Below are positions 1 to 26,239 of a stretch of DNA of 26,239 nucleotides, piece after piece (within the stretch, counting starts at the first letter, position 1; every line of letters starts with the position of its first letter). The stretch covers positions 5,955,552-5,981,790 of the forward strand of contig NC_087391.1 of NCBI RefSeq assembly GCF_963675165.1, given 5' to 3'. The notes under the pieces are model-generated. The model was not told the origin of the DNA and did no database searches. It saw nothing but the letters and a program-made list of their open reading frames with translations. A program made the translations under genes and the position numbers. The DNA is from Halichondria panicea (Eukaryota; Porifera; Demospongiae; Suberitida; Halichondriidae).

Positions 1-194
1 GTCCCACAACTAGGAACGCAAGTATCACAGCAATCTACAGAATAGAGAAGAGGTAATAGCATTAGCAGCAGGGAGCTGCCACCAACCTTCATGGTGCAGA
101 GTCGGTCCGGGTGTCTATAAAATTAAAAGAGGAGGCGAATTGTCTTTACTGCAAACAAAAGGTCATATAATTATAGCAAAGATGAGGACAATTA

Positions 195-206
195 TGCGCA
201 TGCGCA
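195..206. promoter_or_regulatory. NRF1-type palindromic site TGCGCATGCGCA
   Basis: The 12 bases are a perfect TGCGCATGCGCA palindrome, which matches the known NRF1/alpha-PAL consensus YGCGCAYGCGCR. It lies about 140 bp upstream of the start codon at 344, a normal promoter distance. Occupancy by an NRF1 homologue is inference. Confidence 0.45.
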
Positions 207-240
207 CAGTAGCAGTCATGGGGTTTCCTCACATGACAAA

Positions 241-253
241 GGGTCAAAGGTTA
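241..253 (+). promoter_or_regulatory. DR1-like nuclear receptor element
   Basis: GGGTCA and AGGTTA half-sites are separated by one base. This is the DR1 arrangement used by HNF4/RXR-type receptors, with one mismatch in the second half-site. It sits about 90 bp before the start codon at 344. Function is inferred from the motif only. Confidence 0.25.
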
Positions 254-343
254 CCTCATAGAAAGTGGGCGTAGCTAGCTAGCGCTATAGCATGCATGCA
301 ATAGCTGCCAGTGACTTGACATGTATGCTATAGTAGTGGATGG

Positions 344-3300
344 ATGGATGGTGATGGCGTGCTCTTGATATGTGTGGCTGGTCTGGTTGGACTAGTGAGC
401 CTCCTCACAGCTCTCTTTCTATCACCAATATTAACACAGAGGAGCTACAAACAACTCAACACTAGGTCTAGGAGGAAACAAAAACTGAAAAGCAGAAATG
501 TGAGGGGTGTATATGTATGTCTGTATATCTGTGTCAGTGTATTGTTGCAGGCTAGTGGGGTTGTGTGCACACCACGACCTCAGCCTCAGGAGACAGTGAG
601 ACATGTCGTATCCACTGGACTACACACTCCGTGCAAGCGGTATATAAAATGTGTTAAATAATAGCCAGTGTCTGTGGATATTGTTGATGCAGATGTAGAG
701 AGGTGAATGCCAAGAAGAATTGCAGGTAAGTCAGTGGACAGAATACTGTCCCCACAACTCTCTCCCCACCTCACACAGATACAACTGCTGTGCCACTTGC
801 TGTAGAGCTGAGGATAATAGCATCTGCAGGGTTCACTGCACTGGCTACAACACTTGTTCTCAGGCTGCCACTACTGCCTACTCCCTCACCTACTCCCACT
901 TTGATATCAGGTGCATGTGTGTGCAGTCTGACTGCATGACTAACCAGGCCACTGACTCTCTAGCTATGCTCACCTTAAGCTCTGTCCACCTCAAGTCCCC
1001 TCCATTGGTCCTCAACTGGTAGGCTAGATCATAACAAACCATTATACCTCCTTCACCAGTGACCTCAGATCTCTCTCAATCTGTCCAACAATCGCCTGGA
1101 GCACTTGCCACATGACCTGGGCCGCCTCTCTGGTCTAGAAGAGCTGTTCCTACAGTATAACCGTCTCTCCCTCCTCCCAGTGAGTACAGTTGTACAGTAC
1201 AGCAGTATGTGCTATTATAGCTCACAGGAGAGTTTGTGTCTCTGCACGCGTTTGGTGGAGCTGGATGTTAAGAATAATCTACTCACCCGCTTACCAGGTA
1301 AGACACTAGGTGGGATGTATCTCTCTGAGCTACAATTAAAGTGATGCCTTGTCAAAATAGTTGCCAAAAGGCTACATGTAGAAAAATAGCTGGCTATTTG
1401 CCCTTATTTTTATTTTTCCTGTCCCCAGACTCCCTTGTACATAGTGCCTATATCTCCCCCTCTGTTTTTCCTATATAGTGCCTATATCCCCTCTGTGTGC
1501 CTATAGTGCCTCTATCCCCTCTGTGTGCCTATAGTGCCTCTATCCCCTCTGTGTGCCTATATCCCCTCTTTGTGCCTCTATCCCCTCTGTGTGCCTATAT
1601 CCCCTCTGTGTGCCTCTATCCCCTCTGTGCCTATATCCCCTCTGTGTGCCTCTATCCCCACTGTGTGCCTATATCCTTTCTGTGTGCCTCTATCCCCTCT
1701 GTGCCTATATCCCCTCTGTGTGCCTATATCCCCTCTGTGTGCCTCTATCCCCTCTGTGTGCCTCTATCCCCACTGTGTGCCTATATCCTCTCTGTGTGCT
1801 TATATCCCCTCTGTGCCCATATCCCCTCTGTGTGCCTATATAGTGCCTATATCCCCTCTGTGTGCCTATAGTGCCTATATCCCCTCTGTGTGCCTCTATC
1901 CCCTCTGTGTGCCTATATAGTGCCTATATCCCCTCTGTGTGCCTATAGTGCCTATATCCCCTCTGTGTGCCTCTATCCCCTCTGTGTGCCTATATCCCCT
2001 CTGTGTGCCTATAGTGCCTCTATCCCCTCTGTGTGCCTATAGTGCCTATATCCCCTCTGTGTGCCTATATCCCCTCTGTGTGCCTCTATCCCCTCTGTGT
2101 GCCTATATCCCCTCTGTGTGCCTATAGTACCTCTATCCCCTCTGTGTGCCTATAGTGCCTATATCCCCTCTGTGTGCCTATAGTGCCTCTATCCCCTCTG
2201 TGTGCCTATAGTGCCTATATCCCCTCTGTGTGCATGTATCCCCTCTAGATGGTGTGGGAGGATTGCGTGCATTGCTCACTCTGAACTTAACCAACAATTG
2301 TCTGAAAGCCTTACCTCGTGAGATAGGGAGCCTCATATCACTAGAGGAGCTCTGTGTGCAGTGAGTCACTGTACAACACTGTGCATGTGTGCGTACTATC
2401 CTCCCCTCCAGTGGCAACCAACTATCACACCTCCCACACTCACTGCCCCACCTCTCAAGCCTCAAGGTACGTCATGCACACACACCCACACACACAACAC
2501 GCCCACACACTGTGTAGATGCTGTATGCTGGAGAGAACCTATTGACCTCACTACCGACCCAGTTTGGACGTCTGTGTCGTTTGGAGGAGTTAGATTTGTC
2601 TGATTGTTGTCTGGTTAGTATTCCTGAGTCACTGACTAACTGCAAGCGTTTGGTTCGATTGTGGCTCTCAGGAAACAAGTAACACATGACCTGTATTAGT
2701 ATATAGTGTGTATCAGCCACTGCAGACTGACTTCCCTACCACACAATCTGGGACACTTGCAAGCACTCAAAGAACTGCATCTCAGAAACAACTCTATCAA
2801 ATATTTTCCTTCTTCTGTGGAAAGACTGAACCTCTACACGTTTACAGGTACCCCCACCCACTCCACACCCCCCACACCCCCCACACCACACCACATCACC
2901 CACTCCCACACCACTCCCACTTTGTGCAGTAGCTATACTGTGTATTTAATATGTATGCCACTTACAGCTCAGAACAACAGTCTATACTCTGAATCTGAGG
3001 CAACCACTTTCTCCAAGAAGATAGTTTGCTGTGTTCCTCCATTGTTGGAGTTGTGTCTGAGAGCTGCTGTACAGTGGGGGCCATTCCTAGAGCAAGGGAC
3101 ACTACCTCAGCATCTGTACAGTGAGACGCTCTGTTTAATGCTGGGTCCCCAAGTACTAGAGGGGCTCTGTAATTTTATATTGGTCCAAATTCTGAAAGTT
3201 TAGAAAGAGCCCATTCAGATGGTATATATGCGACCATTCCCATTAACAGGCCGAAAAAGTATTTGATTCTAAAACATCTTCTGAAAGGGCTCTCTAAGCT

Positions 3301-3481
3301 TTCAAAAAAAAAAAATGCATGTGTCCCCCCTACAGATACACTGTGTGCACCAGTGCCTTGCTCATCCTGTGAGCTCCCAACATTTGACCATCACAATACA
3401 CTAATACTGTATAAAACAGTCGGAGTGTTCTATAGACTGCCTCTCATGTATACCTACTGTTGTGTGTGCAGCTCCCACTAG
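344..3481 (+). CDS. LRR protein with N-terminal hydrophobic segment, CC-type zinc motif and LRRC28/LRRC58-like C-terminus
   Basis: Thirteen exons with consistent phases: 344-499, 551-639, 693-725, 779-910, 964-1018, 1069-1179, 1228-1297, 2249-2360, 2412-2466, 2518-2678, 2717-2847, 2968-3120, 3336-3481. They encode about 467 aa. Residues 6-30 are a hydrophobic, signal-anchor-like segment followed by a basic stretch. Residues 80-112 hold the spacing C-x2-C-x8-C-x3-CC-x2-CC-x7-C-x2-H, like the zinc motifs of plant SHI proteins and DUS1L. About ten to eleven 23-residue LRRs follow (from about 130 to 395), for example LISLNLSNNRLEHLP. The C-terminus has a VPPLLELCLRA segment, C428-x2-C431 and a YRLPLM motif before C461/C462/C464, resembling the Cys-rich tail of LRRC28/LRRC58. 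The LRR and C-terminal exons are solid. Joining exons 1-4 to them rests on splice phase and on an LRR that spans the exon 4/5 junction. Role unknown; probably protein binding. Confidence 0.75.
1441..2245 (+). repeat. Intronic minisatellite, 19-nt TATCCCCTCTGTGTGCCTA unit
   Basis: Dozens of copies of a 19-base unit, many followed by a 9-base TAGTGCCTA spacer that makes a 28-base unit, fill most of the 951-nt intron 1298-2248 of the LRR gene. The array ends exactly at the acceptor: the last unit reads TGTATCCCCTCTAG, so the repeat resembles the gene's own pyrimidine tract. Long open frames through the array are repeat artefacts, not genes. Confidence 0.9.
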
Positions 3482-3620
3482 CCACTCAGCAGCTAGCAGT
3501 GGTAAGTGGTTTAAACAGGCAATAATAATTATTTTAACCTCTGCAGATATGACCTCCCATGCAACTCTCAATCCATGAAACAATCACATTCAATTTTTGT
3601 ACACAAAATTATTATTATTA

Positions 3621-8646: not shown

Positions 8647-10747
<2,101 letters not shown>

Positions 10748-11478
10748 CTAGGAGAGAGGGGCCATTAGACAATGCATAGCTAACACACGCACACACTCCA
10801 ACCAGGGCTCTAGGAGAGAGGGGCCATTAGACAATGCATAGCTAACACGCGCACACACTCCAACCAGGACTCTAGGAGAGAGGGGCCATTAGACAATGCA
10901 TAGCTAACACGCACACACACTCTAACCAGGACTCTAGGAGAGAGGGGCCATTAGACAATGCATAGCTAACACACACACACACTCCAACCAGGACTCTAGG
11001 AGAGAGGGGCCATTAGACAATGCATAGCTAACACGCACACACACTCCAACCAGGACTCTAGGAGAGAGGGGCCATTAGACAATGCATAGCTAACACGCAC
11101 ACACACTCCAACCAGGACTCTAGGAGAGAGGGGCCATTAGACAATGCATAGCTAACACGCACCCACACTCCAACCAGGACTCTAGGAGAGAGGGGCCATT
11201 AGACAATACATAGCTAACACACGCACACACTCCAACCAGGACTCTAGGAGAGAGGGGCCATTAGACAATGCATAGCTAACACGCACACACACTCCAACCA
11301 GGACTCTAGGAGAGAGGGGCCATTAGACAATGCATAGCTAACACGCGCACACACTCCAACCAGGACTCTAGGAGAGAGGGGCCATTAGACAATGCATAGC
11401 TAACACGCGCACACACTCCAACCAGGACTCTAGGAGAGAGGGGCCATTAGACAATGCATAGCTAACACGCGCACACAC
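10748..11478. repeat. 62-bp tandem array carrying copies of an AP5M1 3' splice site
   Basis: About 12 near-identical 62-bp units run from the start of the first visible AP5M1 exon into the assembly gap, so true copy number is unknown. In transcript orientation a unit contains a branch-point-like GTCTAATGG, the pyrimidine tract CCCCTCTCTCCTAG, the exon-like AGTCCTGGTTGGAGTGTG and a short TG/CG run. The genuine acceptor at 10748 belongs to the last unit. Units differ at a few positions (AGC or AGT after the acceptor; GCGC or GCAC). Confidence 0.93.
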
Positions 11479-11678
11479 NNNNNNNNNNNNNNNNNNNNNN
11501 NNNNNNNNNNNNNNNNNNNNNNNNNNNNNNNNNNNNNNNNNNNNNNNNNNNNNNNNNNNNNNNNNNNNNNNNNNNNNNNNNNNNNNNNNNNNNNNNNNNN
11601 NNNNNNNNNNNNNNNNNNNNNNNNNNNNNNNNNNNNNNNNNNNNNNNNNNNNNNNNNNNNNNNNNNNNNNNNNNNNNN
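11479..11678. other. Assembly gap, 200 N
   Basis: Exactly 200 undetermined bases, which suggests a default gap size. The left flank is still inside the 62-bp array; the right flank is unrelated. The N-terminal AP5M1 exons (roughly 200 residues by comparison with the human protein) should lie here or beyond, but I see none to the right. Confidence 0.97.
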
Positions 11679-12402
11679 GCGCCCTGGGATTTCCCACCCC
11701 TAGCCAAAATTCCCCCCCCCCCCCTGGAAATATGATGATGTCCTACCAAATTGTACAGTCATTCAGATAGATCTATACATGTAGCTATAATGATTATTCT
11801 ACGTGTATCAGTCAAATCAGTTGAGAAAAAGCCTCTTACATACATCAGGAGTGCATACATGTATATCCAATCTAGCACAATGACATGGTACAGTTCAAAA
11901 GTTAAGACAGGAGATTACATACACAAAATGCATGTATATACAATTATTATTATGATACCCTTTGAAATTTAAACTTTACAACATAAGCAGAGCATGTACA
12001 TAGTGGGACCTAGCCTCGAGACCAGGCCGATTAAAATACGTATTTTAATCGGCCTGGTCTCGAGGCTAAGTGCATGGGACCAGGCTCTGTACACACACTA
12101 TATAGAGGTCAATTTGAGTACCTTTTCTGCTTTGTTCAAAACATTTTTTATTAATATCATTTCTGGTATTTCTTTTTCGCCAACACAGCCTCCTTTGGCA
12201 CCAGAGGCACTATTCACCCCCTCATAAAGGTCGACTTACTACAAAACAATTATTAAACATCGACTCTTTTGTAACGTCGACTCAATTTTATAACATAGAC
12301 TCATAAACATTGACTCCGACTGCTAATATCGACTGCTGTTTATATAAACTGGTTTAAGGCAATAATAATAAGGTCGACCGATTTTTATAACTGCATGAAA
12401 TG
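11679..12402. other. Non-coding AT-rich region after the gap
   Basis: No exon is recognised. It contains a run of 13 C at 11712-11724, the 58-bp palindrome at 12011-12068 and several GTCGAC/TCGACT motifs between 12229 and 12377 that look like a decayed short repeat. Confidence 0.5.
12011..12068. repeat. Perfect 58-bp palindrome
   Basis: The 29-base arm starting TAGCCTCGAGACCAGGCCGA is followed directly, with no loop, by its exact reverse complement; the centre is TACGTA. A related end, TAGCCTCGATTCCAGGCC, occurs once more at about 24188. The arm is therefore probably a transposon terminus and the palindrome two termini joined head to head. Confidence 0.9.
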
Positions 12403-12424
12403 AAAGCACCGCAGGTGCTGATGC
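12403..12424 (+). repeat. Dispersed-repeat terminus AAAGCACCGCAGGTGCTGATGC
   Basis: This 22-base sequence recurs exactly, in reverse complement, at 18430-18451, and in a shortened form (lacking five bases) near 16861. It contains the near-palindrome GCACCGCAGGTGC. It is best read as the end of a short dispersed element. Confidence 0.6.
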
Positions 12425-12589
12425 CTCGGTGAGGTGCCAAAGCTACTTTTGCAAATTAATTTTGCTTTGCATGCAGGAAGAATCCAGAGGAACGCCTAGA
12501 TGGGCGTGCCAGTCCCCAGCCATAAAAGGGGGAGGACATGTATGAACGTACATACGTACTTCTAAATGGGATGTTTGATTATGACAAAC

Positions 12590-12722
12590 AGGGAGAAAAG
12601 AGGAGAAAAGAGGTGCAACGAATGCTCTGAACGTAAAAGAAGATTGTGGTTTGTGTCAAACATGCAAAGACAGTCATGCTGTTGGGGGCAGTATACGCAA
12701 GAAACAATGCTGTCAACATAAT
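12590..12722 (+). pseudogene. CXXC-type zinc finger fragment with a frameshift
   Basis: One frame reads GEKRCNECSERKR, and after a shift of one base another reads EDCGLCQTCKDSHAVGG and then RKKQCC. Together they follow the CXXC (CpG-binding) zinc finger: basic lead, CxxC, then C-x2-C-x2-C with the GG and KQ-C motifs. The third cysteine of the first cluster appears lost, no start codon is visible and the frame is broken, so this is a decayed fragment. Source unknown; CXXC and PHD fingers occur in some animal transposon proteins, and a PHD ORF lies 1.5 kb away. Confidence 0.5.
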
Positions 12723-14202
<1,480 letters not shown>

Positions 14203-14442
14203 TTAACATATTGAGCATTTCCACTGTTCACGGATGTCATGTTGGTCAATCCTCACGCAATTAATGTGGAACCAACGTGGACAGTAATCACATCCCACCC
14301 AATTCTCCTCGTCTCCTGCCTGCTGGCACTGCTGACAAATGTTTGTGTCGATCTTTTTGTTGATCTTTTTGTTCATGCGTCTGCGTTTCACCACAGGGGT
14401 GGTACTGTGTCTCCCCTTCATCCGTTTGCTGCGCTTCAACAC
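14203..14442 (-). CDS. PHD-finger C-terminal exon, probably of a truncated or transposon-borne gene
   Basis: The frame has a very basic lead (KRSKRMKGRH, KRRRMNKKINKK) followed by a complete C4HC3 PHD finger: C-x2-C (ICQQC), C-x2-C (GCDYC), H-x2-C (FHINC) and the W-x-C-x2-C end (WKCSIC), then the stop. PHD fingers read histone tails. The open frame continues upstream to about 14493 without an ATG; the first in-frame ATG is at 14424. The piece therefore looks like the last exon of a larger gene. Its 5' side is occupied by the start of the plus-strand DDE gene, so it may be truncated by that insertion or be a second gene of the same element. A terminal PHD finger is known from some pogo/Tigger-like transposases, but no transposase homology is visible on this strand. 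Confidence 0.6.
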   Translation of the reverse strand: MLKRSKRMKGRHSTTPVVKRRRMNKKINKKIDTNICQQCQQAGDEENWVGCDYCPRWFHINCVRIDQHDIREQWKCSIC

Positions 14443-14610
14443 AGGAGTATTGTTTTCAGTGCAAAGTGTAAGAGCACGCTTTAGTTGTTTGTCACGGCTT
14501 CACCACTGCTCGCTGGATCTCTGTTCGTACCACTGTCTGATGGAGGGGATGTAGTTGTGGACATATCTAGCTGGTGTGACTTCTTCTCAGAAGTTTCTAG
14601 GTTTGTGGAC

Positions 14611-16739
14611 ATGCTTGAGAGGCAGTACGGCTTGGCAAACGTGGCCTTCACTGAGTATGCTGTTTTGAGGATCTCAACAACTATCAGAAGCCTGCAGAGT
14701 ATAGAAGAAGCATTGATCGCTCATGAAAACTCCGATGATTTAGAGGAAATAATTGGTTATGTAAACGAGCTTTCTGACATTTTAATGGTGCTACAATCTG
14801 TTTGGAGTAGTTATGAGGAGGCCATGAAGAATACCTCGGTGGTACAACGAGTACCACCTACTGTTGGTAATGGTAGAGGAAGGCCACGGTTTGACATAAC
14901 ACAGGAACAAATTGAATATCTTCGCTATCTATCATTTAGCTGGAGTTCAATTTCCTCGTTGTTAGGAGTATCAAGAATGACACTTTACCGGAGAAAAAAA
15001 CAATTTGGCATTTCTTCAACAAATTCGTCTCTGACTGATTCTGAGTTGGACGAGCGTATTCGTGAGATCCGTAGAGAGCTACCATACAGTGGTGAAACAA
15101 TTGTTATGGGAAGATTAAGAAGTATTCAGTGCTGTATTCCGCGTAAGCGTGTCAGGGAAAGTATCCGACGAATTGACCCACTGAACACTCCTTTACGATG
15201 GGGAAGGAATCGACACTCAAGAAGACCATATTCTGTTCCGGGTCCTAACTGCTTGTGGCATTTAGGTAAATAAGTTATAGTATGAGTGTTTATATCCTAT
15301 GACAGTCACAATATGCCATGGTTCACTTTCAAAGTAGTACCGTGGATGCAGTATATGTAATACTTTTTAACAAGCTAGACAAAATTAATTATCTGCAAGA
15401 TTTTGTGCCAAACTTGTCTAGTCTAGGGATCACAAATACCGCAGTTGGCAGCCAGGGGAGGTTGAAAGGAAGTTGAGATCGTGCTCAATTAAAGCTATAA
15501 ATGTGCTGAGTTGGCGCTATTATTATTGTGTCTAGTCAGCCTTTTAGTTATACTTATTAAGATATCAAGAGCTAGAGATGAGGAGTAGAAGAGCACCTAC
15601 ACGCCAGACTCCTGTCCAGGAAGAGAAGTCTCATCTCCGTAGATCTAGTACTTTAGCTAGGAGAAACCTTAGTTGAGAATTTTAAATCAGAAGGTGCAGT
15701 GATCAATGTTGTACAGCTTGGGGTGAGAAAAAAGTCAGACCGCTCATTTTCTTGATGTCCAGTAGTTATCTATGAAACTGTTGACCAGACACAAAAATAG
15801 CGCCGATTCAGCACATTTATAGCGATATTTTTTGCATGTGACTTAACTTCCTTCCAACCTCCTCGTTAATCGGTTGGCAGCACCTGCATGAAAGTAGGAT
15901 GTATTTATTCATAACCATAACAAGGCATTATGTATATTATTTCCTTTCCAGATGGTCATCACAAGCTGATAAGATGGCGTCTAGTGACCCATGGAGGCAT
16001 TGACGGTTACTCCCGCCTGATTGTCTACCTCCACTGCAGCTCAAACAACAAGGCATCAACGGTTTATAAGTATTTTTTGTCAGCAGTTGAGGAGAACGGT
16101 CTCCCATCACGTGTGCGTACAGATTGTGGATTGGAGAATTTTGAAGTCGCTCGTCACATGCTACAACATCGTGGTCTTAACAGAGGTAGCATAATCACTG
16201 GTAGTTCCACGCATAATCAGCGAATTGAGCAGCTATGGCGTGATGTTCACGGTGCTGTCACGAAATTGTATTACGAACTGTTTTACCACTTGGAGGAGTG
16301 TGGACTCTTAGACCCTCTAAATGACATGCACCTCTTCTGTCTTCATTATGTGTACCTACCACGCATAAATAGGGCCCTGGGTATTTTCAAGCGTGCTTGG
16401 AACAATCATGGAGTACGCACGATGCACAATGCCACACCTCAACAGCTATTCACGGAAGGTGCCCTTCGTATGCACATTTCTGGATTGAACCCAGTTGAGT
16501 ATCCCAACAGTGAGTATTCTGAGTACGGTGTTGAAGAACTTCATGCCGATGAAAGTGATGATAACTCTGACTTGGAAGGTGTTCATGTCCCTCAAATGGA
16601 TGCTAACAATCAATATTCTCATCTTATCGAATTTGTGAGCAATCAAGTCAATCCACTTGCTGAAAGTGACAGTCTTGCTATTGATATTTACCAGCGTGTG
16701 CTGCGAACAATTGAACAATCTATTAACAATATAACCTAG
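14611..16739 (+). CDS. DDE integrase-core (rve-type) transposase or transposase-derived protein
   Basis: Two exons (14611-15265 and 15952-16739) encode about 480 aa. Residues about 90-135 form a helix-turn-helix region ([15 protein letters not shown], then [17 protein letters not shown]). The integrase core begins at LWHLDGHHK, where the exon junction lies inside the codon of catalytic Asp219. It continues with [23 protein letters not shown] (Asp276) and [12 protein letters not shown] (Glu311), giving D-56-D-34-E with all three acidic residues present. This layout is known from an integrase-core family repeated in fish, cnidarian and sponge genomes. The C-terminus is acidic ([11 protein letters not shown]). 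No stop or frameshift interrupts it, so it is either recently active or maintained. The frame is open upstream of 14611, so an earlier start or an upstream exon (acceptor-like TTCTTCTCAG at 14581-14590) is possible. Confidence 0.8.
15444..15881. mobile_element. MITE-like inverted-repeat element in the intron of the DDE gene
   Basis: About 80 bases near 15455-15537 (GGTTGAAAGGAAGTTGAG, then ATAAATGTGCTGAGTTGGCG and TGTGTCTAGTC) reappear as an imperfect reverse complement at 15784-15864. The pair is flanked by the direct repeat GTTGGCAGC at 15444-15452 and 15873-15881. Inverted ends, short length (about 420 bp), no coding capacity and a possible 9-bp target duplication indicate a MITE; nine bases is typical of Mutator-like elements. 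The extreme ends do not match perfectly. Confidence 0.65.
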
Positions 16740-17496
16740 CTGACTTTGTTCATATATATATACTCACATATAGACATCACTTGTTTGTCAGTTTGTATTA
16801 TTGTGCATGTGATTGATCCTTCAAGATGGGAGGCTATAGTGATCGCATTATGTATAATTGAAAGCAGGTGCTGATGCATCAATCAATTATTTCCAACGCA
16901 TGTAAAATATCAACCGCGAACGCTTGACGTAGCAGCTAAGAATTTTTGTTTAGCTTGCTCCAAGAACGTTGTTAAAAGAACAAGAAAAAGGTTGCACAGC
17001 ACTAGTGCAGTCAACTCAACTTACTCTAGCTCCTTGTCTGGCTAACAGTAGCCACAGTTAGGCTGACTAGCGCTAGCTATAAATGCGTCCTACAGTGTAA
17101 AGAACACATACGCTTCTTGTCATTCTTTATTTCCTTTAATTTAGTCAAAATCTTTGATCTCCGCTAAAAAAGTTCAGACTAAAGTGCTCAGACGGTGTCT
17201 CTACGACAGCGGCTGATTCATGAGACTACAATGGCTGGGGCTATATAATTTTGGTGTATGTGTATGGGTTGATTTATACTATGTATAAAGTGACTATAGC
17301 TAGCTGTAGAAATTAACATCTCTTCGCACAATACTCAAGGAAAAGAGAGCTGCATGCTGTACTGTCCTCAGAGGAAAGTAATTACATTTCGTTTCCCCAA
17401 TGGAGCCACAACTGTTGAAAGATTCAGCCTGTCATGACAGACCGTATAAAGGCAAGATTTTTTATAATTATTACCACCTTCATTATAATTATATAG
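16740..17496. other. Non-coding region after the DDE gene
   Basis: AT-rich DNA with no recognisable exon. It includes a shortened copy of the dispersed-repeat terminus near 16861 (AAAGCAGGTGCTGATGC). No terminal inverted repeat partner for the DDE gene could be fixed by eye. Confidence 0.4.
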
Positions 17497-17693
17497 GATT
17501 TGTACGAGCATGTGTTCTGCTCCAGTCAATTGCAAGATACACCCTGCTTTGGCTTGTTCACTACTTATCCAAGGCAATGCATGGATCCACTCTGTCAGTC
17601 TGAAATTGACCTTCCATCCGCTATTGCTGTTGAGCTAGAATCAAAGGATCTCAATTTTCCGAACCCCTTAGACTATCTTCATGACGAGGCAAG
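17497..17693 (+). pseudogene. Possible upstream exon of the HECT-like pseudogene
   Basis: An open stretch after an acceptor-like TATATAG encodes DLYEHVFCSSQLQDTPCFG and a segment ending NPLDYLHDEA. It precedes the HECT-like pieces on the same strand. A GT donor at 17694 would leave phase 2, which does not fit the next exon (phase 0); a GC donor two codons earlier (GAG|GCAAGG) would fit. No domain is recognised. Confidence 0.3.
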
Positions 17694-18041
17694 GTTTAGT
17701 ATAAATTTCAAAATTCAATAATTGCAGCGCTTTGGTATAGTAGATAAGATCTGGATATAACATTATTGGAGAATCAATCTCTCCGAACTCTGCTTTCTCT
17801 TTTAAGAGTAACAAAGTACGCTTCACCCTTACCCCTAGTGTCGTTGGCTTTAGGTACAGCCTAGCTAGCTAAAGTCTATTTGAGTTGAGTTCAACCCCGG
17901 AAATTATGTGGTCAATTATGGCTTCGTTTATGCTTTATATGTGTGGTGGAGTATGCCTGGGACTTTTACATGGTACCCTTACTATAATGACCTGATATGT
18001 CCTTCGAACCACACAATGTTTATTGTAATATTTATTTTTAG

Positions 18042-19683
18042 GGTGACTTACCAGCTCTGAATGTGAAAGAAGATGCTAAGGTGTTACGTAAAGGTATGTA
18101 TATAATAGTAATTATGCCTCGAGGTGTAGCCACACGAGGGATACGGTAAAGCTGACTGTGTATCTGCATGTGTGTCTTTTCCAGCTTTAACTGCTCAACG
18201 GTTGCAATGCGACGAAAACTAACAGCTTCTATGCTTTGAGCCACGTTGTTTTGGATTTTGCTTTGTGGATAAAGTGCGTCCAACCTCCTCTGAGTTTGCA
18301 TAGGGTCTATGTTGTGCTTTGGAGGAATGATGTGAGAATAGGCGATTTGATAGGCTGTTACTTGTGCTTGAGAATAAAAGAATAGCATAATAGGAAATTA
18401 TCTTGAGCATAACAACCCCTACCATTACAGCATCAGCACCTGCGGTGCTTTTTTACACAGCAAGTAGCATGTTACAAACAAGAAAATGTTGTGGCTATAT
18501 AGAGTCGAGGCAATAATTATTGTTTCCGCGAACGTATGCATAGTTGTGTCTACTCGTTAATTTTGTTCCTGTTAATACATGTGTACACTATAAACGTTGA
18601 ATCCCTTTTTATTAGCGGATAGTGCCCGTCAGCAGTTTATGGAGTCACTGGCTCTCAGAAGCAGTCTTCCTTTCATCATCACTCGCCAGCATGTGTTTGA
18701 AGAAATAATACTTCTCTACCGCAACCACGAGCAAGATGTCCTGCAAGTGTATCCGTTAGAGTTAAGTTTGCTGATGAGCGAGCAATGAGTTACGAGGGAT
18801 CTCTTTTCTGCGTTCTTTGAAGAAGCGTATAAGAAGCTGTTCGATGGATCCTCACTTCTCTGCCCCATTGTTCATCCCGGAATGGATGTGTCCAACCTCA
18901 AGACAGTGGGCTTAATCATTTCTCATGCATACTTATTAACCGGACTGTTGCCTACTCGGGTTTCATTTCCATGTCTAACACAATCTGTATTAGGTATTGA
19001 TGTTGTTATATCCTGAGGGGGTGCTCTTAGATTGTTTTGTGGACACCATTAGTAATCATGAAAGAGATATCATCAAGCAGGCAATTCAGTATGGTGCAGA
19101 CTCGAGCTCATTCACACCTTCCCTCCAATCAAATTTAATAAACATCCTCAGTCGCTTTAACATCCGTGAAATCCCAACCCCCCTGAATCTTCGGCAAATG
19201 CTAATTAACATATCCAAGTACGAATTTCTAGCCAAACCTGTGCATGGCTGCTCTTGTTTTGATGAATTTAGGTGCACCAGCTCAACATAAGCCTTTTTGG
19301 AAAACTGTCGACGTAAACAAATTGCTATCTATTTATCGTGCACAGAGTGTTTCCACATCTATGACTCTCAAAATGTTTGAGAATGCCGAGGGCGCAAATG
19401 AAATTCAAACACGCATTTTGCTGTACCTCAGACAGTATATTGGGAATATGTCGAACGATGAATTCGTACATTTTTGAGATTTGTAACTGGGGCTGCAACC
19501 TGTTCATCCCTGCAAGTTTCGGTGCTTTTCAACAACACAGACGGATTTTCGAGACGACCTATCGCTCACACTTGCTCACCCTCAATTGAACTATCTACAA
19601 GCTACCGCACATACAAGGAATTTGTGGATGAATTTAAGGCTTGTCTTAATTCATCATACGCATGGCTAATGGATTCTGTCTGA
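18042..19683 (+). pseudogene. HECT-like ubiquitin ligase pseudogene (C-terminal region)
   Basis: Exon 18042-18093 (GDLPALNVKEDAKVLRK) splices in phase to 18616. From there pieces of a diverged HECT-type domain follow in order: ITRQHVFEEIILLYRNHEQ; DLFSAFFEEAYKKLFDGSSL; SHAYLLTGLLPTRVSFPC; PEGVLLDCFVDTISNHERD; NLRQMLINISKYEF; IYRAQSVSTSMTLKMFE; RFVTGAATCSSLQVSVLFNN, ending with RRPIAHTCSPSIELSTSY near the C-terminus. The frame breaks near 18760, 18797 (an apparent loss of about 11 bases), 18993, 19243 and 19474, and no introns at those points restore it. HECT-like proteins with an FVTG...RRPIAHTC ending are a large family in sponges and other animals. The catalytic cysteine region corresponds to the AHTC segment. 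Five breaks make a functional ligase unlikely. Confidence 0.72.
18118..18451 (-). mobile_element. Short dispersed element inside a HECT-pseudogene intron
   Basis: The intron 18094-18615 contains a GC-richer block that starts at GCCTCGAGGTGTAGCCACAC and ends at the 22-base terminus shared with 12403-12424. The shared end and the location inside an intron suggest a non-autonomous element of about 330 bp. Its left boundary is approximate and no target duplication was found. Confidence 0.45.
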
Positions 19684-21620
19684 CTCAATAGATATACATA
19701 TAATATGTCGTGCCTCACTATAATAGTATACATGTATGCATGCATGGCATGGGCCGCATGCATGGCTAAATTATCTGACTCAATAGTATAGATATTATAT
19801 AATTATGTCATTGTGCCACACAATTTGTGCTGATGTATTTCGTTTATATGAATACAACTTCCAGAAATGACTTGACTGTGCTTATGTATAGGGAGTGACA
19901 ATTAACCATTAATAACTGAAATTGAGGTTCTTAATTATAGTAATTGTCAATAATTAAGAAACTCGATGGTGCTCAAATACACATTAATACCAAAGTCACT
20001 ACTTTCAGCCATTGGGTTTAGTAATTCTGACAATCATGTTCTGATGAATTTGAAGGAACATTATATACACGCACTGTATATAATCACTCTGCTCTAGTGC
20101 ATGTGCCATCTTTTGCTTCATATGTTCGTCCACTCATTCAAATGCCATCAATACTTCTTTGAAATCATATAGTGCACCTGACACGAACACTTGATGAGGC
20201 GAGAGATTGTGCTCTGTCCTAACAACAGCATGGTCATCTCACCCATCTCAAAACTCAGCTATTGAATTGGTAAATGAACATAGTGGAGGGCAAATCGATG
20301 AATATTATTGCTTGGGTCTAGGAAGCCACTATGCTCGAGATAATAGAAAAGTCTGTAGTACAACAACTGCCTACAGTCATGCAACGGTGTAAATCTCTCC
20401 AAAAACGCTCAATGCGTTGATTATGCACCGAACTGCCTGTTCATACTATACAAACTTAATTTTTAGTAATAAATTACCTGATTGCGTACAACAATTTAAT
20501 TGATTCTCGACCTATATGTACCTATTATGCGAATGCATGGTGATGCCGATGGAACATCGGGACAGACACATGCAACTACAAGCAGTTAAGCTATTTATTT
20601 CAGCTGTATGTTTCACGTAAAAAAGGTATGTATGGCAGCTGTATACCTATTTCCTAATAGTACCAGCAGCATGCACCTACACAACTGCATGCATGCATGT
20701 GTACACATGCACACTCTTGAGTAATTAAAAGTGTGACAGGCATAATTCAACTGCTCAACCTAGCTTGCTTCTATAAGCCATTGCATAACACCGTATTGCT
20801 GGTTACAGGAATTTCAGTAAGTAAGCAGCCGTCAGGTGAACATAATCATAATAATAATTATACTGAGTGGTATAAGACATCTTTTAATATAGTTGCACAT
20901 AATTGTACACTTGTGGACACAACAAAGATCATGCAGAGTTATTGGAAATGGTTATATTGATGTACTATGATAATAGCTGTCCATCCAATATAATAGTGGT
21001 GAGGAAAATAAGTTATAGCTTTAAGTGGTGAGGAATAAAGTTATTATGTAGCTAGCTAAAGCAACAAAGTCCAAGCCAAAGTTCAGACTGATCTTTGACA
21101 ATGTATGTATATAATTATACACAAGTACAAATTCAACCATCACTTCACTTGTCTCCTAGAACTATGCGCATGGGTCCAAAGGTCAAGAATGCAATACGCA
21201 ATAATTTTCTAGTGTCATTATCCTTGACCTTTTGACCCTGTCGAACCTCCTCTGGCACCTACCTAACACTTTTTCTAGTCCTCCACTGAATTTCCCCAGT
21301 ATATACATAGGAGAGCCAATGGGCACTAAAACTATAAAACTCTCCTATATTACTTCAGGGAATAATTAATGCTCGGTACTAAATCTCTCCTATAATAACG
21401 TACAGCTTTCATTGGGTGATGAAAATATGTATGTATTGGCATTCTTGCATGGTTAAAGTAACTAGCTAATTTTTAACCTCAGTATAGTAGTCAAGGTCAA
21501 CAAGGTTTTTCACAATGACAGGTGTCTAGAATACCACACAGCATGTTATTGCACTTGAAACAGGAAACATGACAATAAAAAGCTGTTTATAAAACACCAT
21601 TTTATATAAATTATAATAAA
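19684..21620. other. Gene-poor AT-rich region
   Basis: No supported gene. Around 20080-20215 short open stretches in two frames (for example HVPSFASYVRPLIQ) may be decayed coding sequence, but no family is recognised. The region has many ATAATTAT and GCATGCAT motifs and no RNA gene signature that I can see. Confidence 0.4.
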
Positions 21621-21832
21621 TATCGTATAGCAGGTAATTCGTGGGGTAAAAAATTCGTTCAACTCGAAAAACGGTGGTTTTCGTGAGTAAAATTTTTAAT
21701 TAGTCTCATGGCCTGCATTGCATTCCTACATTCCGGTAAGCCACGCCTACGTTAAAATTTCGTGGAGGTCAGCTTGCCCAAGCTAGAAAATAACGAATAT
21801 TTTAACCCACGAAAATTACTCGCTATACGGTA
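21621..21832. mobile_element. 212-bp MITE with terminal inverted repeats
   Basis: The left end TATCGTATAGCAGGTAATTC and the reverse complement of the right end TACCGTATAGCGAGTAATTT match over about 38 bases at roughly 80% identity, continuing into TCGTGGG-TAAAA--ATTCGTT. The element has no coding capacity and starts and ends with TA, compatible with TA target insertion. Confidence 0.75.
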
Positions 21833-23135
21833 GTGATGTAAAGTAGTAAACAACAATTGACATTGTGCATGGTGAAGCCATTATAGGTACAGTATACTAA
21901 GGCAGTCTTGATCTGAGACAGTCAACAATGTAGTATGACCAACTAAGGTGCTGCTAGACGATGAAGTGAGTTGGCCCTTGAAATAATTATTATGACTGAT
22001 CAAATTCAGCCTGAGGAGCAGTTTTGGAGGTACACCTGAGAATAGAAGGCACAAGTGGTTTCTTATAGGATACAATGTCCACTATAATAAAATTATTACC
22101 ACTATACTGTAAACATGTATACACTATATTATAGTTAAGCTGGTGATTTTTCCTTTAACCCACTAGCCTGGTCTAAAATAACCCTGATTATAAGTTTGTA
22201 ATTATAGCTCACCAAAAAACTTGATCAAAGGAAGTGTGTCATAAATTTCTTTTAAGTGGAGGTAGAGGTAAAACAGAGGGGTGAAAGAGGGAGACACCAC
22301 GAGACAGTCCAACATGCTCCGATCTGATACTTATAGGGAACTTTCACCTCTAAGTCTCCACAGCAAGCGCTATTAAATGTAGTGCGCTGTTTAAGATATT
22401 ACATGCGCGTTATGGTACTTATACGTTATAGTACTTAAAGCTTCATGCACTGTTTGCATAATAATAATCTACTAACCACCCACGCATAAAATAATTAATT
22501 GTATGGCCACATGAGCTTGAAATAATACCATGAGACTGCTGTTTAATCGCTGCTAACTCACATGTATATAGTGTACTTACAATATTTTCTGTTCAGCTGT
22601 TGTTAAATGTGGCTTCGCAATTAATCTCTTTCGGTCAGCAGATTTTGGTAACACAAGAGTATACATCTGTATATTGAATAAGTCGTTAGAAATTAGCATT
22701 ATGAAAAGAGTGTACTTTCCTTATAACAACTGCACACATACGTATATACAATTCACATGTAAGTTTACTACTCACTGAGCTGGGATATAACACAGGCACA
22801 TGGAAACCTATCTCTATGTCATGTATTCATGTATAACATTACTATAAAGGGGTGACATACCAGGCTTTGTACAGATACCAGAAATGAAGCTAGAGCAAAT
22901 GAGAATAAACGCTTGTCCAGTTTTGGTACTATGCACCCAAAAAATGGTTCTTCTTATTGCATACAAACATAGACACCTAAAATTTCAGCCCAGTTTACAG
23001 AGGCATAACAGAACAACATGTACATGTGTGTATAATCAAAACAGCACAACTCATGTTTTCATTGCAGGTAATTGTTTACGTTGAGTTTCATGCCATACAT
23101 TGAAAGGACTAGATGTTGGATTAAGTTGAAGGTAC
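21833..23135. other. Non-coding region
   Basis: AT-rich DNA. A possible minus-strand terminal exon follows an acceptor-like TTCTATTCTCAG (complement near 22035) but is open in two frames, so it is not called. No other feature is supported. Confidence 0.35.
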
Positions 23136-23216
23136 TTGCTTGGCTAACCTTTGTTTAATTTCTTTCCACTTTTCTGATGCAGCCTTATTTCTGTCATAAA
23201 AACATTGAAACACCCT
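23136..23216 (-). CDS. Possible internal exon of an unrecognised gene
   Basis: An 81-base phase-0 exon is bounded by TTTATGCAG and by the donor CAA|GTACCT. It encodes 27 residues, RVFQCFYDRNKAASEKWKEI and then KQRLAKQ, a charged helix-like segment unlike the surrounding AT-rich DNA. No partner exon could be fixed and the family is not recognised. Confidence 0.28.
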
Positions 23217-24685
23217 CTGCATAAATGCACATGACGTTACAGAACACCCAATCAATTTGAGAGAAAGGAATGAAGACACACAATTAAGATCACGAGTGGA
23301 ACTGGTTACGACCATTAAGAGAAACCATTATGTATTATAATAATACTGTAAATTGTTTGGCCACTACATTAATACTTCATTTAGCAAATTTAAAGTATAA
23401 GTATATACTCTGTTCCTAAGTTATTAGTACAACCCATGGATATCAATGTGTGCAGTAGCAGTCATGCACATAATCTAATTTCATTTTTATTGGGTAAGTA
23501 TAGAGCTAAAGTATCCTAAAGCAATAATTATTAATAGCTGCTCAACAGAATCAAGTGGGATCTAAAATAAAATACTTGCCTTTTTTAGTGAAGAACTCCT
23601 TTTACGAATATATTTTGTGGCAGTTTCTTTGCACACAGTATCATCATCATCGTCATCATTATTTCGACCACACACTCTTTTCCTACATGCTCTTTTGTTG
23701 GCAATTCAATTCTGCAATGGAAGAATGTATGTACATCTAGATGAATTTTATAGTCAATCAGAAAGTGGTGCACTCACTAAAATGAACGAGTACAGGATCT
23801 ACAATTGTATATTATACCAGTACATCATTGTACACTATCATGGTGAAACATAGTCAAATACATAGTTAAAATAATGAGTGTGTGGGGGGGGGGGTGAGAA
23901 GACCAATAGTGTACGCATAAGACTAAGCAAATTAACAACGTGTGCTTATAGAAATTACATTCCACCATGACACAGTTACCCAATGCATGGACATAAATAC
24001 AAAGCTATAATATTATCGGCTATATATATATGCAATATTTACGACTATAACCTATAATTATATGTACGGTGAAATAGGCGCAAAGTAAACTTTTCAGTAA
24101 TTAGCTAGGGGGTGGGGTATGAAATACTGGAATACTATAATTACAGACTACACACCGGCCACAGTGCACCACAACTACAACAAAAGTAGCCTCGATTCCA
24201 GGCCAGGAGGGTTGAAGGGTTGGAGTTGAACTGGTCAGCTACCAATGAATCATTATGATCAATGAGAGTGAAGGACCAATATCATGTGACATTTACAGCG
24301 TACTTCACTTGTCACTGGGGTATGACAATGAAACAGTCAAAAGGTCATAAAATATCACATGCATGGGGTTATCATTCACGCACTTCATCAAATAACTGAT
24401 CAAAATGAGGAGCTAACTCTTCAGCATGGTAAAAGTGGACCTTATTGACCCTGTCGTACATATACGTATCCCCCTACACACTCTTTGTAACTTTAGGAGG
24501 TACGTTGTATAGTATTCCCATGCTTGAACTCAAAATCATGTCACACATTCTAGATAGGAAGTTGACCCATTCCCAGTGGGAAGTGGGACTGTCAACTACT
24601 TTAGCTACATGAGTGTATAATTAATAGCCCGGGTAAGAGGTTTTGGTCAGGGCTACAATGTACGCCTTCAAATGTTATAACAACT
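23217..24685. other. Non-coding region
   Basis: AT-rich DNA with a G run at 23884-23893 and a TAGCCTCGATTCCAGGCC motif near 24188 related to the palindrome arm at 12011. A minus-strand open stretch around 23590-23700 (RACRKRVCGRNNDDDDDD) has a weak acceptor and is not called. Confidence 0.35.
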
Positions 24686-24934
24686 TTATTGGCTTATCCA
24701 GCTGTTGAACCATAAGCAGTTATCAAACTTCTCCTTGGACACATTATTCATCACATCATCAAATGCCTTAGCAATTAACAGTTTGCTTTTCCTGCTATGC
24801 ATAAACTCCACTTTAGCCGTCTTTGACTTTGATTCCAGTGATCCTGCTACAGTCTGCAGACACTGTTTCAGCTCAGCTAACGTCACTGTCAAGCCACCAT
24901 ACCACGTGGGTGTGCTATTATCTTGTACAAGTAG
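24686..24934 (-). CDS. Probable terminal exon of an unrecognised minus-strand gene
   Basis: After an acceptor TCACCATAG the frame is open for 82 codons: LLVQDNSTPTWYGGLTVTLA, then ELKQCLQTVAGSLESKSKTA, and on to FNSWISQ and TAA. The frame just upstream of the acceptor has a stop, which supports an exon boundary there. The stop is embedded in CAATAAAG, so the AATAAA poly(A) signal overlaps the stop codon. Composition looks like real protein, but I do not recognise the family and no upstream exon is fixed. Confidence 0.4.
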   Translation of the reverse strand, partial: LLVQDNSTPTWYGGLTVTLAELKQCLQTVAGSLESKSKTAKVEFMHSRKSKLLIAKAFDDVMNNVSKEKFDNCLWFNSWISQ

Positions 24935-25375
24935 CTATGGTGATGAAGACACTCCAGCTGCCTTCTGCACTCGTTGTATTAGCATCAGTCTATCCAAACA
25001 TGCGATAATTATAGATTAGATACAGTCAGCACGCACATACCCATCTACGGTACACGGGTAATACTTGATTACAACACATAAACAACTATAGTACCTATAA
25101 TAGAGCCTGGAAATAACATGTGAAGCCTGGTGATTCTACTAAACCACACCCAAACGTCATATCCGACCGTAATAAAACATACATTAAAAATATAGTTTGA
25201 GGCAGCCAGTACACGAATGGCCCATTTCAGGGCCACAGTATCTGTGCCAAACCAAATGGCCGGTATATCGAAATGGCCGTACTTTAGAGAGCTGGAATAG
25301 CGAGAGTTTACAGTATGTTATGTTATCGCTTCTATACTAATTAAAAAGCGAAACATAGATGAGATGAAAGTTCTT

Positions 25376-25627
25376 TTAAACAAGCAGAGCATATGCAATC
25401 CGTTCTTTCCTAGGTGCAGCGGGGTCGCGAGGGTAACAACGTTCATCTAGTGTGAGAGTGAATACTGTCCCCCGAACAAAATTCAGTAGTCGAATAATGT
25501 CCCTCCCTGCATGGTGAATTATCAGCAGCAGAGATATTTGTTCCAACTGGTTTCTCCAACCAGAAAGAGTTGAATACTTTAAAGTGGAAAGAGGAAGTTT
25601 ATTTAGACCCCTCAGGGCAGCAACCAT
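25376..25627 (-). CDS. Unclassified open reading frame
   Basis: An 83-codon frame starts MVAALRGLNKLPLSTLKYST and contains LEQISLLLIIHHAGRDIIRL. The open stretch extends nine codons upstream to a TAG. Composition is protein-like, but splice sites are weak and no domain is recognised. It could be an exon of the gene ending at 24686 only if an internal donor exists, and I do not see a good one. Confidence 0.2.
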   Translation of the reverse strand: MVAALRGLNKLPLSTLKYSTLSGWRNQLEQISLLLIIHHAGRDIIRLLNFVRGTVFTLTLDERCYPRDPAAPRKERIAYALLV

Positions 25628-26129
25628 GCAGGAGTATAAAGCTGATGAGGATTGAGACTATTTCTCCAATTTCCCTGCATGGTTAATATTATGAGTGTAG
25701 TCAGTATAAACTTTGTTGCAGTCTGCAAATATTAACATCAATATTTACAACAGGACATGCACTGCTCACTATATAAGTTCGTATATCTTATAACCTCCGA
25801 CGTTACAAATCTCTACATTCCAAGAACGGCACACTAAAATGCTGCAAGAGTCTCTCCCGGCAGATACGCTTTTCTCACTTCTTCCCCCCTCCCCCTGGGA
25901 AATGGTGTGGCTCCCAGACTATTAAAAACGCCCGGATACGATCTAACCAATGGATACAATAGTATTTAAACTTAGCAATACCTGATTCTATTATCACACA
26001 TGCACAGGTAACTCCAGGACATCTCCCCTGCAGTATAATCTTGAAGGTGACCAGCAAGGTACAGCTAGCTAGCTTAGGAGCCAGACTGCACATAACAACA
26101 GGCCCTGCATGCACTGTGAGGGACAAGTG

Positions 26130-26142
26130 GGGTCAAAGGTCA
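26130..26142 (+). promoter_or_regulatory. Perfect DR1 nuclear receptor element
   Basis: GGGTCA, one spacer base, AGGTCA. This is the consensus direct repeat bound by HNF4/RXR/COUP-type receptors. No start codon is assigned nearby, so the target gene is unknown. Confidence 0.35.
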
Positions 26143-26239
26143 CGCAGCCCGTTTGACATGCCCCCCGTGACGTCTTCATTTACTTCCTTCGTGTAATTAG
26201 ACTGGTTGAATTTTGTTACAAACGGCGTGCCATAATAGC

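Follow-up and report, generated by a model that had tools for sequence, protein, structure and literature searches.

Tandem duplication of a 3′ splice site in the AP5M1 gene of the sponge Halichondria panicea

The stretch of DNA analyzed here (the window) comprises 26,239 nucleotides from Halichondria panicea and forms the last 26 kb of a 5.98-Mb scaffold, C15. Its minus strand carries the trafficking gene AP5M1, whose 12 exons (Table 1) join into a frame of 457 amino acids without internal stops. By using a search of proteins with solved structures, we matched this frame to the AP-5 complex subunit mu-1 (PDB 8yab_E, E = 2.6e-66, residues 1–452), which supports the gene identity given in an initial annotation of this DNA. 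Pfam returned Adap_comp_sub (1.5e-11) for part of the 3′ half of the gene (exons 6–8) and no match for the 5′ half. Eight of the 11 AP5M1 introns are 44 to 82 nt long, and the remaining three all contain arrays. A scan of a prokaryotic genome collection with exons 6 and 7 yielded 53 pattern matches, none of which was confirmed, as is expected of prokaryotes.

Table 1. Positions of AP5M1 exons, repeat arrays, and assembly features. Coordinates refer to the window unless prefixed with C15; a slash marks a splice junction.
Feature	Coordinates	Strand	Remarks
AP5M1 exons 1–5	C15:615–1329		Exon 5 ends at C15:615, donor AAG/GTTTGTAT
62-bp array	10726–11478	minus	Each unit consists of the intron 3′ end and the exon 6 start
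Decoy acceptors (n = 11), first exon-side base	10809, 10871, 10933, 10995, 11057, 11119, 11181, 11243, 11305, 11367, 11429	minus	
AP5M1 exon 6 (138 nt, phase 0 to 0)	10610–10747	minus	Exon 6 contributes its first 27 nt to the unit; homology at start
AP5M1 exon 7	10313–10540	minus	
AP5M1 intron 7 (566 nt)	9747–10312	minus	Holds the second boundary array
AP5M1 exon 8	9649–9746	minus	
AP5M1 exons 9–12	9587–9493, 9410–9298, 9251–9155, 8732–8647 (with stop)	minus	
CCCCCTCACACACA-type repeat array	8734–9133		Fills intron 11 of AP5M1, which separates exons 11 and 12
Assembly gap (200 N)	11479–11678		Inside the AP5M1 intron 5 array
14.5-kb contig after the gap	11679–26239		Interspersed repeats in the first 1.5 kb and the last 1.2 kb, the stretches searched

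The start of exon 6 is fixed by protein homology. The exon opens with the residues SPGWSVGVYRG, opposite QPAWKVGAYKG in the solved protein, and across the exon 5/6 junction QK/SPGWSVGVYRG aligns with QKQPAWKVGAYKG. Exon 5 ends in a complete codon, which confirms phase 0 for exon 6. Judged by these alignments, the acceptor at 10747 is genuine, and the homology likewise bears out the proposal that the real exon beginning there is the last unit of a repeat array. We also sought domains of three AP-5 partners, and all were present (AP5Z1/SPG48, AP5S1, and the spatacsin C terminus), with some of the spatacsin-domain matches carrying stops. Because these partner domains are present, AP5M1 is probably still in use.

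The array at the boundary of intron 5 and exon 6 is far beyond chance. A string search of the minus strand revealed 12 exact 62-bp units in the window with the acceptor CTCTCTCCTAG/, at positions that run from 11429 and 11367 to 10809 and 10747 with all 11 spacings equal to 62, and TRF reported a period of 62 with 12.1 copies and a 97% match over 10726–11478. The acceptor GTCTAATGGCCCCTCTCTCCTAG is present in each of these units, and each unit is composed of 35 nt of intron end and 27 nt of exon 6 start. Ten further acceptor copies occur in the same orientation at C15:1–610, and the two scaffold ends combined therefore display 22 acceptors, namely 21 decoys and the real one. All 22 carry CTCTCTCCTAG, which together with the constant spacing leaves no visible copy lacking the acceptor string, and 21 of the 22 have the same bases from −32 to −1. 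Only eight unit types are seen. Units 4 through 12 are identical, with unit 10 read across the contig break, and the last unit (21) has AGC in common with the real exon. The exon 5 donor lies 43 nt from the first acceptor and, if the two halves abut, the 22 acceptors span distances of 43 to 1345 nt from that donor. The array of about 12 units reported by the initial annotation, with an acceptor in each, is thus confirmed for the window (12 of 12 units), and the array as a whole is larger, at about 22 acceptors.

The array in the window runs straight into a gap of 200 N. A DNA search of the sponge's own genome (131,455,214 bases in 39 contigs) placed the array, among the matches found, at two locations: the window and C15:1–610, which is the extreme left end of the same scaffold. 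There it adjoins AP5M1 exon 5 at its 5′ splice site (donor AAG/GTTTGTATTAGC), such that the left end of the scaffold holds exons 1 through 5, and exons 6 through 12 are near its right end. In this assembly of one haplotype, we read the two locations as the two ends of a single array. When the first 327 residues of AP5M1 were used for a protein search of the genome, eight of eight matches fell at these two ends, and the gene appears in the genome as a single copy. Because both scaffold ends together give an intact AP5M1, we infer that the scaffold join across the gap is wrong. The array ends from the two contigs meet in exact 62-bp register (a chance of 1 in 62), which suggests that one contig was cut while scaffolding. 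Note that the count of 22 copies is provisional, because the cut lies within nine identical units in a row, the joined unit included.

The 14.5-kb contig that follows the gap is probably foreign to its present place. The protein search with the first 327 residues gave no AP5M1 match within it. Its first 1.5 kb has at least 86 genome matches, itself included (40 of 2041 candidates scored), and among the matches listed for its last 1.2 kb are copies at 100% identity on contigs C1 and C4. C1 has TTAGGG arrays at or close to each of its ends; none were seen in bases 1–3600 and the last 640 bases of C15. It could be argued that the array is wholly an assembly artefact, given that it touches the gap and that the scaffold is misjoined at this very point. 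However, the array is found on both halves of the gene in the right orientation and phase, its units differ by base variants, and the contig ends agree in register as if a single contig had been cut. We therefore regard an artefact as scarcely credible. The coincidence of the array with a broken scaffold, which puts the halves of one gene at opposite ends of 6 Mb of sequence, could yield two false partial gene models.

The origin of the array may still be readable. When the array is collapsed, a 43-nt GT–AG intron remains between in-frame exons, about the size of the other small introns of the gene. Aligned by the period, exon sequence GTGTGTAT and intron sequence GTTTGTAT agree at seven of eight positions, of which the last five are identical, and diverge right after. 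The 5-bp microhomology TGTAT would be common to both putative breakpoints, in GT-rich sequence, and a duplication between them would copy 27 exon and 35 intron bases, or 62 in total. The founder 62-mer predicted from this placement has three differences from unit 15, three from unit 21, and five from the consensus. We propose that the array began as one microhomology-mediated tandem duplication and that slippage or unequal exchange would later have expanded and homogenized it. Among intron-derived positions 1 of 735 is changed, compared with 3 of 294 in exon-derived columns 1 through 14 (Fisher p = 0.07). This is a comparison of copies that are not independent, and columns 15 through 27, the GT-rich junction with 13 changes, were left out of it. 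With this p value and this dependence among copies, we do not claim that the intron-derived part of the unit is under selection.

Use of a decoy is predicted to close the reading frame. When the reading frame of the real exon is applied, 10 of the 11 window decoys continue for nine codons to a stop, as the initial annotation had asserted for all of them, but the decoy at 10933 reads only three codons, its TGG being TAG. Among all visible decoys, 20 of 21 read nine codons (one of these across the contig break) and one reads three. The earlier expectation that decoy use truncates the protein is upheld, in that the frame would end after 3 to 9 codons if no further splicing intervened. These decoy stops are essentially one inherited event. 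The nine-codon stop arose once because the intron TAG comes after the ninth exon codon, and all three frames of the unit are visited in read-through because the 62-nt period is not divisible by 3; one founder event and such a period rule out 21 independent stops. Among 20,000 random 62-mers of the same composition, 89% closed within 186 nt and 28% within 10 codons. The nine-codon stop is no evidence of design.

A second boundary array resides in intron 7. It contains eight decoy acceptors, CAG/GGTGATAGCTACAC, with GT runs, plus one copy without the CAG, and the real exon 8 acceptor, CAG/GGTGATAGCTCAGTG at 9746, comes after them. Seven of the eight decoys stop inside the array after 13 to 62 codons, and the eighth (9820) does not share the frame of exon 8 and, when read through the spliced later exons, stops past the array after 75 codons. 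No common unit sequence is visible between the arrays of introns 5 and 7, and for this reason boundary duplication seems to have struck AP5M1 twice, in separate events. No exon copy was seen in the intron 11 array (8734–9133).

A regulatory reading was also considered, wherein the cell would tune AP5M1 by its choice among poison acceptors and array length would set the productive fraction. All 21 visible decoys before exon 6 close the frame, and so do those of intron 7, seven inside the array and the eighth beyond it. Nevertheless, frame closure is expected for a 62-nt period, and homogenization explains the near-identity of the copies, and we judge regulation of this kind to be quite improbable. 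A wider conjecture, to which we give little credence, is that array length serves as a heritable and perhaps somatically variable attenuator. Each unit would add one more decoy with the same core, copy number would set the share of productive AP5M1 mRNA, and the same process would operate at several 3′ splice sites of the genome (two in AP5M1), so that splicing variation outside lancelets would repeatedly arise from boundary minisatellites.

We consider it probable that the array is a minisatellite born across an intron–exon boundary (a "mirage") and that its decoys are a tolerated load rather than a switch. Productive mRNA would arise from splicing to the last acceptor, the sole one with the rest of exon 6 directly attached. 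Because all acceptors share their core, the real one cannot stand out by its own strength. Recognition of the exon would instead set it apart by what follows, namely the whole 138-nt exon and its donor, and the decoys would mostly be ignored as pseudo-exons without a good adjoining donor and without most of the exon body. Any use of a decoy would lead to a stop within 3 to 9 codons and probably to decay of the transcript. We favor exon recognition with silent decoys because the frame is intact, the AP-5 partner domains are present, and lancelet mirages with this geometry are reported to leave regular splicing undisturbed.

Against tolerance stands the position of the first decoy, which carries the same acceptor signal as the real site at a distance from the donor close to the 44- to 48-nt introns of the gene. 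It is transcribed about 1.3 kb earlier, and simple proximity would favor it. If decoy use were to dominate, the first acceptor would be taken with a 43-nt intron, most transcripts would stop within nine codons and decay, and AP5M1 would be a strong hypomorph or a gene nearing loss, a fate that AP-5 has met in many lineages. The short first intron and the shared acceptor core are what this outcome would need, but no stop interrupts the 457-amino acid frame, the genome has domains of three other AP-5 partners, and normal mRNA is reported for the lancelet precedent. We therefore find dominance of the decoys unlikely, although clearly the most serious of the alternatives. Strong RNA structure that hides the decoys was also considered and rejected. 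A 620-nt portion of the array gave a fold of −183.5 versus a mean of −203.1 (SD 8.5) for 30 simple shuffles that do not preserve dinucleotides, making the array less stable than its shuffles, with no sign of a special fold.

Donor-like sites within the units were scored with a human donor matrix, by which eight genuine donors scored 0.07 to 6.83 and the real intron 5 donor 1.47. The best site was at −0.45 or lower in 18 of the 21 units, whereas units 3, 15, and 19 scored 1.76, 1.56, and 0.92, respectively. Of the acceptor and donor that a poison exon should own, the former exists in all units, and donor-like sites are weak in 18 of 21 and comparable with the real donor in three. These scores do not decide between silent decoys and decoy use. 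They also bear on a reading in which each unit would supply a microexon and a 43- to 49-nt intron, chained to add a repeat peptide (for example, 15-nt SPGWS units). The GT-rich unit and the scores of units 3 (15-nt exon, in frame), 15 (19-nt exon), and 19 (7-nt exon) relative to the real donor are compatible with such chaining, but the remaining 18 units score too low, and, by hand reading, consensus 19-nt exons joined end to end run into TAG at the junction of the first and the second. We hold chained microexons to be extremely improbable.

The interpretation in the initial annotation is partly supported by these results. It had offered three options, of which a tolerated burden is the one that the evidence favors, whereas the "splicing buffer" and the "poison-exon reservoir" find no positive evidence, with in-unit donors weak in most units. 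Retention of the splice motifs lends neither function support, because a recent, homogenized duplication yields them, and we found no evidence for a regulatory role of the array in the sequences examined. The earlier interpretation did not include the misjoin at the gap or the second boundary array of the gene, nor did it include the founder duplication and the ancestral intron of 43 nt.

A survey for further 3′ splice-site arrays covered 44 arrays in 23 stretches totaling 246,239 bases (the window, C15:1–20000, and 20 stretches of 10 kb, with all of these 20 on C1–C4). Eight candidates were proposed, one of them the AP5M1 intron 5 array; among the other seven, Pfam matched one (Sushi, in a repeat run taken as coding) and none of the remaining six. 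The survey is insensitive, because it missed the second AP5M1 array, and it says little on array frequency. At C15:14487–14950, a 118-bp array of 3.9 copies precedes an open frame that has no Pfam match. It holds 11 near-matches to a site resembling an acceptor and is possibly another boundary array. Within the window, a 19/28-bp pyrimidine-rich array at 1478–2246 with repeated TATAG ends stands directly before a likely acceptor of an LRR exon; no copy of the LRR exon was seen within its unit, and the adjacent LRR pieces, roughly joined, had LIC11098 and SHOC-2 as best PDB matches. The window also has an unbroken AC dinucleotide run of 436 bp at 13265–13700 (218 copies, 100% match). At 14206–15270, a minus-strand PHD finger (Pfam 2.7e-8) adjoins a plus-strand frame of 262 amino acids with a weak HTH_23 match below the cut-off, and the two are possibly parts of a transposable element.

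Mirages are known from lancelets, where two reports describe tandem repeats of intron/exon boundaries in Adh3, the globin genes BflGb6 and BflGb9, TnC, and PGBD5, state that regular splicing is left undisturbed, and note that boundary units escape homogenization (PMC3087553, PMC3902484). In AP5M1, as in the published account of BflGb6, the 3′ end of an intron and the 5′ part of an exon are repeated as a minisatellite that spans the splice boundary (PMC3087553). The same sources indicate that many lancelet repeats retain splice signals, as they do here, and that BflGb6, like AP5M1, was aberrantly assembled in a genome draft (PMC3087553, PMC3902484). The sponge array has about 22 copies of 62 bp, compared with the 6 and 3 units of 150 to 160 bp described for BflGb6. 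A unit that spans the intron–exon boundary is found in the intron 5 array and again in the array before exon 8, and units with splice signals are many, with 22 acceptors in the former and eight CAG decoys plus one that lost its CAG in the latter. By its sequence organization, the AP5M1 array fits the structural definition of a mirage. It differs from the lancelet examples in its sponge host and in the presence of two arrays in one gene.

Other systems resemble this locus less closely. Human internal tandem repeats at exon–intron boundaries within segmental duplications are reported to affect gene structure, but that account concerns recently duplicated paralogues and novel introns (PMC2812944), whereas in AP5M1, which was seen as a single copy, an intron of 43 nt that already existed became longer. 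Intron gain by tandem genomic duplication, as described for potato RdRp, likewise links a duplication within a gene to intron structure (PMC4974935). However, the AP5M1 intron was already present and no new position arose, as is evident from the short intron between in-frame exons that array collapse leaves. An introner would be expected in dispersed copies, and among the matches found in 131 Mb the only copies were C15:1–610 and the array in the window. We found no boundary minisatellite from a sponge in the open-access literature searched, the coverage of which was limited. The AP5M1 array would thus extend boundary minisatellites beyond lancelets to a sponge, in a case where the birth event is readable. 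Its approximately 21 near-identical decoys, at 43 to 1283 nt from the donor if the halves abut, would offer a natural test of how the spliceosome chooses among equal acceptors, whether by proximity, transcription order, or exon definition.
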